Shown: piece by piece, positions 45,652 through 51,612 of the stretch
Numbering within the stretch: the first letter of the stretch is position 1
Layout of the letters: each line of letters begins with the position of its first letter
Assembly: GCF_012271785.1 (NCBI RefSeq)
Contig: NZ_JAAWVT010000001.1
Span: 744,001 to 808,000, forward strand
Reading direction: 5' to 3'
Length of the DNA: 64,000 bases
Source of the DNA: Paeniglutamicibacter terrestris
Lineage (GTDB): Bacteria > Actinomycetota > Actinomycetes > Actinomycetales > Micrococcaceae
The notes under the pieces: generated by a model
What the model saw: the letters and a program-made list of their open reading frames with translations, nothing else
Told to the model about the DNA's origin: nothing
The model's database searches: none
Program-made: the position numbers and the translations under genes

Positions 45652-45757
45652 GAAGACATTATCCAGGTTTGGTAATGCGCTTGTAATCTGTGTCATATAT
45701 CGTGAGAAACAAGTGGCCACGGAGCCACCGGAAAAAACTAAATAGTCTTCCGATCAC

Positions 45758-45936
45758 GCGCAGCTGGAGAGCCTCGAACATCAATCGGGCACCGAAGGGG
45801 CAAGCACCCGCAATCTCTCAGGTACCAAGGACAGCTGCGCAAGGAAACTCTGGAGAGCAGTCGTTTTATGCGGCTCACCGACGAAGCACGCCGTTGCCCC
45901 TACGCAACGGTTTATCTTTCAGGTTCAGGAACAGAG
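45758..45936 (+). ncRNA. tandem glycine riboswitch (two aptamers)
   Basis: Aptamer 1 (45758-45840) has an 8-bp P1 (GCGCAGCT with AGCTGCGC), GAGAG (45767-45771) pairing with CTCTC (45815-45819), and the conserved CACCGAAGGGGCAA and AATCTCTCAGG..CAAGGACAG. A 7-nt linker leads to aptamer 2 (45848-45936) with P1 CTCTG/CAGAG, GGAGAG, CACCGACGAAGCA and ATCTTTCAGGTTCAGGAACAGAG. These are the signature elements of the glycine riboswitch, usually an ON switch in tandem form. About 80 nt separate it from the first membrane-protein gene; no classic terminator with a T-run is seen there, so the output mode is unclear. Confidence 0.9.
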
Positions 45937-46015
45937 CGGGCACGGTAGCGACCGGCATCACACAAGGTCCTCGCTCCCCTACTTGATTCCCTCGATGAAC
46001 GGTAGAAATTTTCCC

Positions 46016-46765
46016 ATGAATATCCCGGCCTTGTTGCCCGCAGCGGCGGATTCCAACTCCACAGATATCCTCGCTATCGCCAACTCACCGGTCCTCTGGG
46101 CCTGTGCGATTGGCGTTTTTCTGGTCATCATCGTCCAGAGCGTTATTTACATGAAGGCAGCCAAGACTGCCGCACCCCACATCGGCATGACGCAGGATGA
46201 AATCAAGACCAGTTTCCGCGCCGGTGCTATCTCGGCGCTGGGACCCTCACTGGCCGTGGTCATGGTCGCCGTCGCCCTGTTGACGATCTTCGGCACCCCC
46301 GCGGTGCTGGTGCGCATCGGGTTGATCGGGTCGGTCTCCTACGAAACGGCCGCCGCTGCCATCGCCGCAAAAACCGCTGGTGCCGAGCTCGGCGGCCCCA
46401 CCTATACCCAGGCCGTCTTCGGCCTGGCCCTGGCCGCGATGAGCCTAGGTGGAGCCATGTGGATGATCGCCACACTCATCCTGACTCCGTTGCTCAAGCG
46501 TGGCGACTCGGCGCTGCGTAAGGTCAACCCCGCCATCATGCTGGTGGTCCCCGGAGCGGCAATGATTGCCGCATTCATGGTGTTGGGCATCGCAGAACTG
46601 CCCAAATCATGGATACACGTAGTCGCCTTCCTATCCTCCGCGGGGATCATGACCATCCTGATGCTCATCGCCAAACGCGTGAACAAGCCGTGGATCAAGG
46701 AATGGGCTCTGGGTATCGCCATCATTCTCGCCCTGGCCATCACCTACGCCGCAACCCGCCTTTAG
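46016..46765 (+). CDS. DUF5058-like membrane protein, putative glycine-linked transporter subunit
   Basis: A 249-residue integral membrane protein with about six to seven helices; after a short N-terminus comes ILAIANSPVLWACAIGVFLVIIVQSVIYMKAA. The loop HIGMTQDEIKTSFRAGAISALGPSLAVV and the later GGPTYTQAVFG resemble DUF5058 proteins as I recall them. No catalytic motif is visible. First gene after the tandem glycine riboswitch, so glycine should control it. ATG 46016 begins just before the hydrophobic part; ATG 45995 is also possible, and neither has a strong ribosome site, which fits riboswitch-controlled initiation. Transport of glycine or a glycine conjugate is inferred. Confidence 0.72.
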   Translation: MNIPALLPAAADSNSTDILAIANSPVLWACAIGVFLVIIVQSVIYMKAAKTAAPHIGMTQDEIKTSFRAGAISALGPSLAVVMVAVALLTIFGTPAVLVRIGLIGSVSYETAAAAIAAKTAGAELGGPTYTQAVFGLALAAMSLGGAMWMIATLILTPLLKRGDSALRKVNPAIMLVVPGAAMIAAFMVLGIAELPKSWIHVVAFLSSAGIMTILMLIAKRVNKPWIKEWALGIAIILALAITYAATRL

Positions 46766-46792
46766 CGCCGCCGAGACTTCCAGGAGCACATG

Positions 46793-47539
46793 ATGAGCAA
46801 AGCAACAGAAATGCACGAGGCGCTAGGCGCCTTCGACAAAACCACCTCCCGCTGGGGCCGGATCACCATGATCATCGGCCTGATCCTTTCCTTGGCCGCC
46901 CCGGCCTACTTGGTCTTCTTTTCGGGGTTGGACATTGAAGTCGCCTCGGTTCTGGCGGCCTTCGCCGCGCTGGCCGCGGTCTTCGGCGTCATCTGGATTG
47001 TGGAGCCGCTGACCTACTTCCCGATCCTTGGCGCGTCCTCGATGTACCAGGCGTTTATGATCGGCAATATCTCCAACAAGTTGCTGCCCGCGGCCATGAT
47101 CGCGCAGGCGACCATCGGAGTGAAGCCCGGTACCCGCAAGGGTGAACTTGCCGCGGTCGCCGCCATCTGCGGTGCCGCAGCCGTCCACCTGACCTCGCTG
47201 TTCGTCTTCGTGGGACTGCTGGGCACCTGGCTGGTCAGCGTGATCCCGACCGACATCGTGCAGACCGTTCAGTTCTACATCCTGCCCACCGTTCTGGGCG
47301 CCGTGATCGTACAGGCCATTGTGAGCCAGAAGGCCCCACGCTCGGCGATCATCGCACTGACTGTCTCCCTGATCGTGATCTTCGTGTTGGTTCCGCTGAT
47401 TCCCGGGATGAACCTATTTGCCACTGCAGTGGCAGTGATCGCCACCGCGGTGCTCGCCTGGGTCTTACGTGATCGCAAGACCCTGGGTGCCACGGAAAAC
47501 GTGGAATCTGATGCCCTCCCCGAGGGCCCGGTCTACTAA
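46793..47539 (+). CDS. membrane protein partner of the DUF5058-like protein
   Basis: A 248-residue integral membrane protein with about six helices (WGRITMIIGLILSLAAPAYLVFF; ASVLAAFAALAAVFGVIWIV; IGNISNKLLPAAMIAQATIGVKPGTRKGELAAVAAI; VHLTSLFVFVGLLGTWLVSVI; further helices; soluble 25-residue tail). The PILGASSMYQAFMIGNISNKLLP loop looks like a substrate or gating element. It follows the DUF5058-like gene by 27 bp with AGGAG at good spacing, and similar size suggests a two-subunit membrane complex. Family not recognised with certainty. Confidence 0.7.
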   Translation: MSKATEMHEALGAFDKTTSRWGRITMIIGLILSLAAPAYLVFFSGLDIEVASVLAAFAALAAVFGVIWIVEPLTYFPILGASSMYQAFMIGNISNKLLPAAMIAQATIGVKPGTRKGELAAVAAICGAAAVHLTSLFVFVGLLGTWLVSVIPTDIVQTVQFYILPTVLGAVIVQAIVSQKAPRSAIIALTVSLIVIFVLVPLIPGMNLFATAVAVIATAVLAWVLRDRKTLGATENVESDALPEGPVY

Positions 47540-47598
47540 CCGCTCCGCGTGAGCCGGCGCCCCACAGCGCCTAGCTACACAGCAACATGGCATAAATA

Positions 47599-47626
47599 GG
47601 CGGTGGCACCCCTCGGTGCCACCGCC
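47599..47626 (+). terminator. perfect 12-bp hairpin between membrane genes and amidohydrolase
   Basis: GGCGGTGGCACC (47599-47610) and GGTGCCACCGCC (47615-47626) with a CCTC loop and no T-run. It may be a partial terminator or an mRNA-stabilising structure that sets the ratio of hydrolase to transporter. Confidence 0.55.
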
Positions 47627-47653
47627 ACCGAAAAGCTAAGGAAATAGCACCCC

Positions 47654-48886
47654 ATGACCAACACCACCATTCCGAAGTCCCTGAGCCTGAGCACCGACTC
47701 GGCAGCGGAAATGCGCGAAACCTACAAGTATCTGCACGCGAATCCCGAGCTGTCGATGCAGGAACACAAGACCGCTGATTACCTAGCCAAGCGCCTTGAA
47801 GAGCTGGGGCTCGAGGTGTTCCGTTGTGGTGGAACCGGCGTGGTGGGCGTGCTGCGCAACGGCGAGGGCCCGGTCATCGGCATGCGTGCGGACACCGACG
47901 GGCTGCCGGTCCTCGAAGACACGGGTCTGGACTACGCCAGCACCGCCACCGGCGTCCTGGATGACGGCACCGAGGTCCCCACGATGCATGCCTGTGGTCA
48001 CGACACCCATATGGCCACAGCGTTGAAGACCGCCGAGCTTTACGCCGGCGCCAAGGACGCGTGGGCCGGGACCATCGTCTTTGTGCTCCAGCCCGGTGAA
48101 GAAACCGCCGCAGGTGCCCGCGCCATGGTTGAGGACGGCTTGTGGGACAAGGCTCCGAAGCCGGAGATCATGTTCGGTCAGCACGTGATGAACGGACTGA
48201 GCGGCACCGTGACGTTGCTGGCCGGCGCCGCGATGACCACCGCCGACTCGTTTAAGGTCACGGTCTTCGGGCAGGGTTCGCATGGCTCCATGCCCGAGCA
48301 CTCCATCGATCCGATCGTGCTTGGCGCCTCCATGGTCTTGCGTTTGCAGACCATCGTCTCGCGCCAGGTGGCTCCGCAGTCCGCCGCCGTGGTGACCATC
48401 GGGTCTTTCCACGCCGGGCTGAAGGAAAACGTCATCCCGGACCGCGCGGTGTTCACGATCAATGTGCGCACCTTTGATACCGAGGTGCGCGAGATCGTGC
48501 TCTCCTCGATCCGTCGCATCATCGCCGCCGAGGCCGAGGCTTCGGGGGCTCCGGAGCCGCTGATCGAGGACATCTCCAACTTCCCGCCGCTGTTTAATGA
48601 CCCGACGGAGACCGAGAAGCTCACCGAGGAATTCCGTGCCGAGTTCGGCGAGGAGCGGGTACTGCCCGGCTCCCCGGTGATGGGCAGCGAGGACTTCGGT
48701 GCATTGGCCGCGGCGATCGATGTGCCCAGTGTGTTCTGGTTCTTCGGTGGCAACTCCGCCGAAACCCTGGCCGCTGGCCACCCGCCGGCCAACCACTCGC
48801 CCTTCTTCGCCCCGGTCATCGAACCGACGCTGAGCACCGGCGTGCAGGCGGCTGTCCGCGCGCTGTTCTCGAAGGTCGGCAAGTAG
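47654..48886 (+). CDS. M20 family amidohydrolase (aminoacylase/hippurate hydrolase-like)
   Basis: A 410-residue dinuclear metallohydrolase of the M20D group. HACGHDTHMATAL (metal ligands C/H), QPGEETAAGARAMVEDG (catalytic EE pair), GQHVMNGLSG and the C-terminal NHSPFFAP are in order, with the dimerisation lid domain between. Family members remove acyl groups from amino acids, including N-benzoylglycine. Placement behind a glycine-riboswitch-controlled transporter makes an N-acylglycine or glycine peptide a reasonable substrate. AAGGAA precedes the ATG. It is 114 bp after the membrane pair and ends at an intrinsic terminator. Confidence 0.87.
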   Translation: MTNTTIPKSLSLSTDSAAEMRETYKYLHANPELSMQEHKTADYLAKRLEELGLEVFRCGGTGVVGVLRNGEGPVIGMRADTDGLPVLEDTGLDYASTATGVLDDGTEVPTMHACGHDTHMATALKTAELYAGAKDAWAGTIVFVLQPGEETAAGARAMVEDGLWDKAPKPEIMFGQHVMNGLSGTVTLLAGAAMTTADSFKVTVFGQGSHGSMPEHSIDPIVLGASMVLRLQTIVSRQVAPQSAAVVTIGSFHAGLKENVIPDRAVFTINVRTFDTEVREIVLSSIRRIIAAEAEASGAPEPLIEDISNFPPLFNDPTETEKLTEEFRAEFGEERVLPGSPVMGSEDFGALAAAIDVPSVFWFFGGNSAETLAAGHPPANHSPFFAPVIEPTLSTGVQAAVRALFSKVGK

Positions 48887-49092: not shown

Positions 49093-51612
49093 GTGGCCCC
49101 GAACCAAACTTCCGATACCGCTGACGTCCCACTGATCCGAGCACGCAACAAACCGCGATTCGGCTTTCCGTGGGTTGCCGTGGTGCTAGGCCTTGGCACC
49201 AGCATTTTTGCCGGTATCGGATTCAACGCCGTCACCGCCGAGCCCACGGCGCCGGTGCAGATCATGATCGAGGGGCAGAACCCCTACAACATCTCCCAAG
49301 AAACGCTCGATGCAGTGATCACCGAGCCGATCCTGGCGTGGGAGCCCCTCACGATTCGAGTGACGGATCGGGCCCTGAGCTACGACGAACTCCAAGGTCG
49401 GACGGATCCCGGAGCCGACGTCATCCTGACCACGCTTATCGACAGCGATACCTTCGAAACCGAAAAGGAACAGCGCTTTACCGGCGCGGGCATCTATCCC
49501 GCGCAGCCGAATAAAGACGAGAACCTCTCGGACCGATACGCCATTTCTAACGCCTATCTCGACAATGTCGGGCTGGGTCACGGTCCGTTGGCCGTTGCCG
49601 CTGCCGCCCAACGCGCCGCGGATGTCTTAGATGGCGGGCGCATCAGATCTCCCGAATTCTGGGTGGCCGGCACGGCCACCGGATTGCTGCTCACGGTGCT
49701 CGCATTCGCCTTCTCACTGCGCCGTCGCCGACGCCGCGAAGGGATCTTCCGTCGACTCACCGCCGCGCAGCGCCAACTGGCAGGCGTGGTGCTGGAATTA
49801 GAGGCGCTGGAAGTCACTTACCTCGGAACGGACCAGGCGAAGCGGACCGCCGGATTCACCAAGTCCTGGACACAAATTCGCGATGATTCATTGTCGCTGG
49901 CCAAGACCGAACAAGCGGTAATCAACGCCGTTTACGACTCCTCGACATCACTTTCACCGAAAACCGCCAAACTCGTCGCTACCTTCGAGACGAAGGCGCA
50001 CGCCATGGTGACTTCGTCCGATGCCCTGATGGGTGCCGGATCCATACTCGGCGAGCTCGCCGGCGGAGCGAGGGTTCTGGACAGGCTAGCCGCGCCAACA
50101 CTCTTGGCCGCCCGTGAATTACTTGCCCGGCTACACGCTGCCCCGCAGGGCGCAATATCGCCCAAGCACGTCACCGCACTCGAGCAGGCAGTGGAAGAAT
50201 TCCTGGCAGCCGGGGCACGGGATGGGGATTCCACCGCCGGACTCAAGACCTGGGCCAAGGCCGAGAAAAAGCTCGAACGTACCGCCCACTCCGTCTATAA
50301 CGCCCTGCGCCATGATCGGCGCGCTCGGGTGCGCGGAGCCTCCCGTGGTCGAGATGATACGGCTGCGCTTCGAATGAGCTTGGGTCTGGCGGCGGGTGGA
50401 ACCAAACAAGTCCTCTACGTCTTAGACGATGCCAACGCCGCGGCACGGGCACTGTTCGGTCCACTGCCCGGCTCCACGGAACCCGCCGAGGTACCGCGTG
50501 CCCGGCATCGCTGGAGTACCTGGAATCTCCAGGCGCCGCCCCGGGCCATGTGGATCACGCTGGGGATTGTCATAGGAATCAGCGCGCTGATCTTCGGGGG
50601 TGTCACGGAAGAAAAGATCACCGAGCGCCCCGGCTGGGATCTGACCGGGAGCCTGCCGGTGCACTCGCTCACCGTTGATGACCCCAGCGGAACCCTCGAT
50701 GAAGATCAGCTCCGCGGTTACCTGCAGGACGGATTTAGCCACGATGTTGACATCACGCTCGCGGTACGCGATGCCGAGGACTACCTCGATACCGTGGGAA
50801 GCTTTGACCCGCTGAGCGGCGCTCCGGATGAAGATCTTGATCCATCGGTGCTTGTTGATTCGCTGTGGCGACTCAAGGCAGAGTTCCCCGAGCTGAGCAA
50901 TGCCATCACCCAGGAACTGAACCCCAACCAGTACCTCGTCCCGGTGTATCTTTTTGACAACGGCACCGTCACCACCCCCACCTGGCTCAGTAGCACCCCC
51001 GCCTCCGGGGACCACAGCAAACTATCCCGAGGTGCTTGGGAATACGGCAGCTACTCGCTCTCAAGTTTTGATGAACCTGCGATGGCCACGACCATCGAGT
51101 CGTTGGCTCGCGGGCTGCAGCGAAATGGAATTGTGGAAACCGATGTGAATTCCACACTCCTGTTCTGGTTGCTCAGCCTGGCCTTCGCCCTCGGTGCGAC
51201 AACGCTCATCCAGATCCTCATCTTTGGCGGCACCATCTCCATGAAGCTGGGTCGCTTTGGACGCGGCGGAAAGCTACTGCGCCAGCTACGTCGCAAGCTC
51301 GACGCACTGGCCCTGGGCTTGGACGAATCCCGACTAAATACGGTGCTGGTGCTCGGCACCGGCCCCGCGGCCAGCAGTCGCGAGGCCGACCAGCGCATCT
51401 TTGAGCGTTCCCTGGCCGTGGCCTGGCGGACGGCCGATGATCTGGCCGCCCGACCGCTGGCCCAGCGTTTGAATGCCGCCTATGTTGCCGAAATTCAGGC
51501 GCTCTCCGAGCTGGTGGATCGATTGGAAATTCGCGACTCCGATGCTCAGCGACGCACCCGCGAACTGCTGGCTAATACCCAGAGCGGGGCAGCCGAACCG
51601 GCGCGGCCCTAA
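49093..51612 (+). CDS. large membrane protein, DUF5129-like
   Basis: An 839-residue protein with an N-terminal helix (about 26-46), an extracytoplasmic segment with TDPGADVILTTLIDSD and a helix near 195-215, then a long cytoplasmic helical region (about 220-470: AQRQLAGVVLELEALEV, VEEFLAAGARDGDS) with the ARVRGASRGRDD linker. A second half with helix near 487-507, an exported PVHSLTVDDPSGTLDE..DVDITLAVRDAED region, and a last helix near 690-715 repeats this topology, ending in a charged cytoplasmic tail. The two TPM-like exported units (each with V.D....L....L) suggest an internal duplication. The family (DUF5129-like) is a recollection; the function is unknown. Confidence 0.65.
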   Translation: MAPNQTSDTADVPLIRARNKPRFGFPWVAVVLGLGTSIFAGIGFNAVTAEPTAPVQIMIEGQNPYNISQETLDAVITEPILAWEPLTIRVTDRALSYDELQGRTDPGADVILTTLIDSDTFETEKEQRFTGAGIYPAQPNKDENLSDRYAISNAYLDNVGLGHGPLAVAAAAQRAADVLDGGRIRSPEFWVAGTATGLLLTVLAFAFSLRRRRRREGIFRRLTAAQRQLAGVVLELEALEVTYLGTDQAKRTAGFTKSWTQIRDDSLSLAKTEQAVINAVYDSSTSLSPKTAKLVATFETKAHAMVTSSDALMGAGSILGELAGGARVLDRLAAPTLLAARELLARLHAAPQGAISPKHVTALEQAVEEFLAAGARDGDSTAGLKTWAKAEKKLERTAHSVYNALRHDRRARVRGASRGRDDTAALRMSLGLAAGGTKQVLYVLDDANAAARALFGPLPGSTEPAEVPRARHRWSTWNLQAPPRAMWITLGIVIGISALIFGGVTEEKITERPGWDLTGSLPVHSLTVDDPSGTLDEDQLRGYLQDGFSHDVDITLAVRDAEDYLDTVGSFDPLSGAPDEDLDPSVLVDSLWRLKAEFPELSNAITQELNPNQYLVPVYLFDNGTVTTPTWLSSTPASGDHSKLSRGAWEYGSYSLSSFDEPAMATTIESLARGLQRNGIVETDVNSTLLFWLLSLAFALGATTLIQILIFGGTISMKLGRFGRGGKLLRQLRRKLDALALGLDESRLNTVLVLGTGPAASSREADQRIFERSLAVAWRTADDLAARPLAQRLNAAYVAEIQALSELVDRLEIRDSDAQRRTRELLANTQSGAAEPARP

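Follow-up and report, generated by a model that had tools for sequence, protein, structure and literature searches.

What does a tandem glycine riboswitch control when the genes behind it encode two membrane proteins of no described function and an M20 hydrolase? The question is raised by a 64,000-nucleotide stretch of DNA from Paeniglutamicibacter terrestris (Micrococcaceae; contig NZ_JAAWVT010000001.1, positions 744,001 to 808,000 of the forward strand), called the window here, in which such a leader precedes genes for a DUF5058 membrane protein, a second membrane protein (TM2) and an M20D amidohydrolase. The answer favoured here, which we place only a little above an even chance, is that the two membrane proteins are the subunits of an importer that takes up a glycine conjugate, that a cytosolic hydrolase frees glycine from this conjugate, and that both stand under the tandem glycine riboswitch. 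The riboswitch RNA as such is ordinary; the novelty is its target, an unnamed, obligate two-protein membrane unit together with a hydrolase. The link of DUF5058 operons to glycine is strong and follows three separate lines: riboswitches, neighbouring genes in Micrococcaceae, and haloarchaeal plasmids. The features of the operon are as follows.

45754..45844, forward strand: glycine riboswitch aptamer 1 (RF00504, 68.2 bits, E 4.5e-12, model 1-94 of 94)
45848..45936, forward strand: glycine riboswitch aptamer 2 (RF00504, 36.6 bits; in the genome-wide search 45840-45944, 44.5 bits)
45937..46015, forward strand: leader from aptamer 2 to the start codon, putative expression platform
46016..46765, forward strand: DUF5058 membrane protein, 249 amino acids, proposed transporter subunit 1 (PF16481, 211.7 bits, E 1.4e-62)
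46790..47539, forward strand: TM2 membrane protein, 249 amino acids, hydrophobic, proposed transporter subunit 2 (from its pairing with DUF5058)
47654..48886, forward strand: M20D amidohydrolase, 410 amino acids, proposed N-acyl amino acid or peptide hydrolase (PF01546; TIGR01891)

A preliminary description of the window had named a tandem glycine riboswitch with intact P1 stems, a DUF5058-like first gene, a second membrane protein of the same size and an M20 hydrolase, and each of these identifications stands. Both aptamers exceed the RF00504 gathering score of 32 bits in cmscan, and nothing else in the 64 kb window passes an Rfam gathering threshold. The P1 stem of aptamer 1 is paired at 8 of 8 positions (GCGCAGCT/AGCTGCGC), with compensated changes among relatives, and that of aptamer 2 is CTCTG/CAGAG, with TTCTG/CAGAA in three of the 12 leaders compared. 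The first gene product is a true DUF5058 protein, matching the full PF16481 model (1-222 of 222, against a cut-off of 28.2 bits), and its nearest named relative, from Paeniglutamicibacter antarcticus, is 98% identical. TM2 has the same length and an unrelated profile; homology between the two was considered and is not supported (hhalign probability 1.1). TM2 belongs to no Pfam family, as none of the five TM2 proteins scanned gave a match above cut-off, and the TM2 of the window has no NCBIfam match at E 1. Against the Protein Data Bank (PDB), the best matches of the TM2 profile were sc-CC chains (E 0.0087 and 0.0088), with no stretch passing the threshold alone, and no TM2 relatives were found in viral contigs. 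AlphaFold2 monomers built on shallow alignments were unusable, with a mean predicted local distance difference test score of 46.0 for DUF5058 (16 sequences) and 43.6 for TM2 (15 sequences).

The two membrane proteins are inherited as one unit. DUF5058 is above cut-off in only 3 of 296 genomes of the phylum and in 87 of 295 Micrococcaceae genomes (19 of 32 genera), and a TM2 profile search returns the identical 87 Micrococcaceae genomes. TM2 lies directly downstream of DUF5058 in all 121 rows of a FastTree tree of DUF5058 loci, follows it in 141 of 141 places in a wider six-frame scan that counts duplicates and split genes, and is matched in the same 12 plasmid records as DUF5058. The tree leaves aside locus L027 (genome G046), where the DUF5058 match is under the cut-off, and L032, a Vibrio plasmid with DUF5058 in two pieces; a split gene in genome G552 forms two tree rows (L176), the second of which was removed before the counts over 111 Micrococcaceae rows given below. 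The pairing is obligate, and co-occurrence and adjacency of this kind are what the genes of a two-part membrane complex would show. This pairing, the glycine-cleavage (gcv) and PF03458 neighbours, the haloarchaeal plasmids and a control of M20D genes without DUF5058 are added here to the preliminary description.

Recurrence of the riboswitch is the first line to glycine. RF00504 was searched in all 87 DUF5058-bearing Micrococcaceae genomes and three more, and the recurrent association with DUF5058 that the preliminary description had proposed to look for is present: a glycine riboswitch lies directly upstream in 13 of 112 Micrococcaceae DUF5058 places against 0.008 expected, and within 12 kb in 19 of 112 against 1.3 expected, both expectations ignoring relatedness. 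The 13 riboswitch-led places span four genera, ten of them in the genus of the window. In a genome of another actinobacterial family (G257), a DUF5058 operon under a tandem riboswitch is convergent with gcvT-gcvH-gcvP, which has a separate tandem riboswitch of its own. The M20D gene alone does not explain the association. Among the matches listed for 30 of the 87 genomes (136 places over the family cut-off, one split-gene piece excluded), a riboswitch lies within 3.5 kb upstream of 12 of the 36 M20D places beside DUF5058, compared with 0 of the 100 without DUF5058 (1 of 100 within 12 kb), and therefore the riboswitch goes with DUF5058 and the idea of a general companion of M20D genes is not supported. 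The element has been lost in some close relatives of the window, such as locus L129, with a remnant of 26.3 bits, and L111, with none at E 2, and three loci (L120, L149, L150) have a GntR/FCD regulator gene directly upstream in its place.

The second line is formed by neighbouring genes in Micrococcaceae. Genes of the gcv, glyA or sdaA type occur in 6 of the 111 rows: gcv-glyA-sdaA upstream of the DUF5058 operon in L089 and L090, gcvP and its riboswitch downstream in L087, and glyA, sdaA or gcv genes downstream on the other strand in L155, L161 and L176. Weak gcvT-like matches, of 117.6 bits in L091 and 62.7-79.1 bits in L112, are excluded from the gcv counts. A PF03458 "Gly_transporter" cluster, of a family that we take to be the same as UPF0126 or TRIC, is found in 7 of 111 rows, L087 among them, with two of the seven confirmed by Pfam scan and the other five placed by similarity. 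In 11 bacteria UPF0126 is important for the use of glycine, according to the pertinent part of a review (PMC12173739).

The third line is a separate one because it runs through glycine-cleavage genes and not through a riboswitch. Haloarchaea, Paracoccus and Vibrio were reached through plasmid records alone (12 records, 10 of them inspected). On five of six haloarchaeal plasmids (Halobellus, Natronococcus, Haloarcula and two of Haloterrigena), DUF5058, TM2 and an amidohydrolase stand in that order, with glycine-cleavage genes no more than about 12 kb away. The Haloterrigena stretches hold gcvT, gcvH, gcvPA, gcvPB, glyA, lpdA and lipA together, and those of Halobellus, Natronococcus and Haloarcula hold part of the set inside the stretch shown. 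A TRIC-family gene is near the operon on four of the six; the one scanned matches PF03458. On the sixth, from Halalkalicoccus (L179), the operon is surrounded by genes for enoyl-CoA hydratases, MaoC dehydratases and an acyl-ACP thioesterase, which might hint at a role for the acyl part in this case. Two Arthrobacter-type plasmids have no gcv genes near the DUF5058 operon.

A hydrolase is the regular third member of the operon. An M20 gene is near 126 of the 141 DUF5058 places of the six-frame scan, duplicates counted, which bears out the other recurrent partner named in the preliminary description. The hydrolase of the window belongs to M20D by TIGR01891 (264.6 bits, cut-off 153.75) and not to carboxypeptidase CpsA, tried and rejected at 269.7 bits against an equivalog cut-off of 500 (NF040868). 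The M20 motif residues C, H, E, E, H and H, which we take to be metal ligands and the catalytic glutamate, are present in 123 of 125 aligned pieces (121 of 125 for the last H), the remainder being gaps, so that they are invariant wherever aligned. The sequence has no hydrophobic N-terminus and the enzyme is therefore probably cytosolic, acting after uptake. Its closest solved relative, over most of its length, is the N-alpha-acyl-glutamine aminoacylase of PDB entry 6slf (313.6 bits), followed by YxeP, an M20/M25/M40 peptidase and a plant indole-3-acetic acid (IAA)-amino acid hydrolase, and the six PDB sequences matched include no named hippuricase. Sequence cannot decide among N-acylglycine, glycyl peptide and other M20 substrates.

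If these parts act together, then glycine would bind the tandem aptamers in the messenger RNA leader and alter expression of the three-gene operon. DUF5058 and TM2 would form a two-subunit membrane transporter importing a glycine conjugate, most likely either a glycyl peptide or an N-acylglycine such as hippurate or N-acetylglycine; the M20D enzyme would cleave the conjugate in the cytosol, and the freed glycine would enter the glycine cleavage, serine hydroxymethyltransferase (SHMT) and serine dehydratase route. Transport by the pair, its inward direction, the substrate and the release of glycine as product are all inferred. The leader has no forward terminator-like site after aptamer 2, its single forward-strand site of that kind (45890-45911) being inside aptamer 2, and this points to translational control. 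Folding of 12 leaders with the P1 stem of aptamer 2 enforced or forbidden left accessibility of the start site nearly unchanged and gave no ON or OFF direction. The sections of PMC11477304 on glycine switches describe them as ON at gcv and OFF at AGCS transporters; because of this precedent an OFF sense is slightly preferred for an operon that may encode a carrier. Paeniglutamicibacter-type leaders carry, just before the DUF5058 start (45995-46005 in the window), a motif resembling CGATGAACGGTAG, which is no clear Shine-Dalgarno site and persists in altered form in L111 and L129, where the riboswitch has decayed.

The preliminary description suggested that the operon would give a function to an unannotated family. 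The recurrent glycine link agrees with this, but not for DUF5058 as a whole. A clade of 46 tree rows (local support 93), with L107, L109, L139 and L152 among its members, holds most loci with an amidase (PF01425). A glycine link is found in none of these 46 rows, compared with 25 of the remaining 65 rows from Micrococcaceae (Fisher p 2e-7, ignoring relatedness). Conversely, the amidase occurs in none of the 25 glycine-linked rows and in 26 of the 86 others. Some loci of the amidase clade have a second M20 gene, of which the L152 representative resembles the N-carbamyl-glutamate amidohydrolase ErtE (485.3 bits, cut-off 520). Since this sister clade has the same operon without the glycine link, the name glycine transporter should not be extended to DUF5058 in general; in the amidase clade the pair may carry other N-substituted amino acids. 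The tree requires at least six changes of the riboswitch and seven of gcv neighbours, so these links were made or lost several times. What the loci seem to have in common is N-substituted amino acids, glycine being one specialised case. A wider proposal, for which belief and doubt are about balanced, is that DUF5058 and TM2 are the two subunits of a so far unrecognised family of transporters that handle N-substituted amino acids and are common to Actinomycetota, Pseudomonadota and haloarchaea. Each clade would have its own kind of hydrolase (M20D, carbamoylase-like M20 or amidase), and the branches linked to glycine riboswitches or glycine cleavage would be specialised for glycine conjugates. 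Genes for CoA-transferase III and carboxyltransferase are also recurrent in the surveyed loci.

Several observations weigh against an importer of glycine conjugates. Outside the amidase clade, 40 of the 65 Micrococcaceae rows have no glycine link in the stretch compared, and 3 of the 13 DUF5058 genomes in the genus of the window have no above-threshold riboswitch at any DUF5058 place. No gcv genes are near the operon on the Halalkalicoccus, Vibrio and one Paracoccus plasmid inspected. The nearest solved M20 enzyme (6slf) prefers N-acyl-glutamine, judging by its name, and the expectation and Fisher figures take no account of relatedness. The 6slf relationship also suits a different reading, in which some other amino acid, N-acylated or N-carbamoylated, is the substrate and glycine serves just as a downstream signal, for example via serine and SHMT; the below-cut-off resemblance of the sister-clade M20 to ErtE and the presence of sdaA and glyA among the neighbours fit it as well. 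The gcv and PF03458 links indicate glycine itself, and a non-glycine substrate seems rather unlikely.

Free glycine as the substrate is the other reading of an importer, with the M20 enzyme left to a secondary role, for instance in salvaging glycyl peptides. Carriers under glycine riboswitches move free glycine or alanine in the part of PMC11477304 that treats them, and the PF03458 genes, tied to glycine use, are recurrent neighbours. The regular presence of an M20 gene speaks against this, as does the sister clade, which retains the pair with other hydrolases. The source genome itself has three glycine-riboswitch sites, leading gcvP-gcvT-gcvH-glyA, a CycA-type amino-acid permease and the DUF5058-TM2-M20D operon, and the permease passes the NCBIfam equivalog cut-off for a D-serine/D-alanine/glycine transporter (757.1 against 732 bits). 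As a free-glycine permease is already under a riboswitch, a different substrate is favoured for the DUF5058 operon, and import of free glycine is unlikely. Export of glycine or one of its derivatives, turned ON by the riboswitch to relieve an excess of glycine, would match the gcv riboswitches, described in the same part of PMC11477304 as ON switches countering glycine excess, and the operon often adjoins gcv genes; a hydrolase that frees amino acids suits uptake and catabolism better, which makes export a slim prospect. Slimmer again is the chance that the riboswitch of the operon is an inherited or captured element of little function. Its decay or absence in L129 and L111 would be expected of such an element, but the P1 changes among relatives are compensated, riboswitches are found on separate branches of the tree, and gcv links exist independently of them.

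An importer of glycine conjugates has partial parallels among known systems. RF00504 elements before sodium:alanine/glycine symporters or CycA-type permeases are alike in placing tandem glycine aptamers ahead of a membrane protein gene, but those carriers are single chains for free amino acids, whereas the operon of the window has a two-protein unit of families without known function and an M20D hydrolase. The closest parallel in design, in the relevant passage of PMC11477304, is an apparent operon of Clostridioides difficile in which a lysine riboswitch precedes yfcC and an M20D gene; it likewise combines an amino-acid riboswitch, a permease and an M20D enzyme, but ligand and permease differ and the likeness is one of design. 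A survey, in its section on the gene, places amhX, a COG1473 aminoacylase, under tandem S-adenosylmethionine (SAM) or T-box elements in Bacillota (PMC12452182). PF03458 proteins are similar as membrane proteins tied to glycine use and differ from the two-gene unit with its hydrolase, neither DUF5058 nor TM2 having a PF03458 match. The 6slf enzyme is named for acyl-glutamine, and the substrate of its relative in the window is putative. In the literature search DUF5058 was not mentioned by any paper, and no paper connected a glycine riboswitch with hippurate; supplements, with possible lists of riboswitch targets, were outside the search. If the proposal is true, it gives a testable function to DUF5058 and to its partner family, which Pfam does not list, and widens the regulon of the glycine riboswitch beyond glycine itself to what is likely the harvesting of glycine conjugates.

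Two minor observations concern the surroundings. The gene after the operon (49093-51612) encodes an 839-amino acid membrane protein with a weak DUF5129 match below cut-off (24.0 against 27.3 bits). Elsewhere in the surveyed genomes, two tandem glycine riboswitches are placed back to back on opposite strands about 190 bases apart (G570:C81:7650-8235), or on one strand about 2 kb apart (G379:C5:60318-62566, G430:C28:4847-7098 and G399:C245:27078-29372), those in G379 and G430 being upstream of gcv-glyA-sdaA genes.

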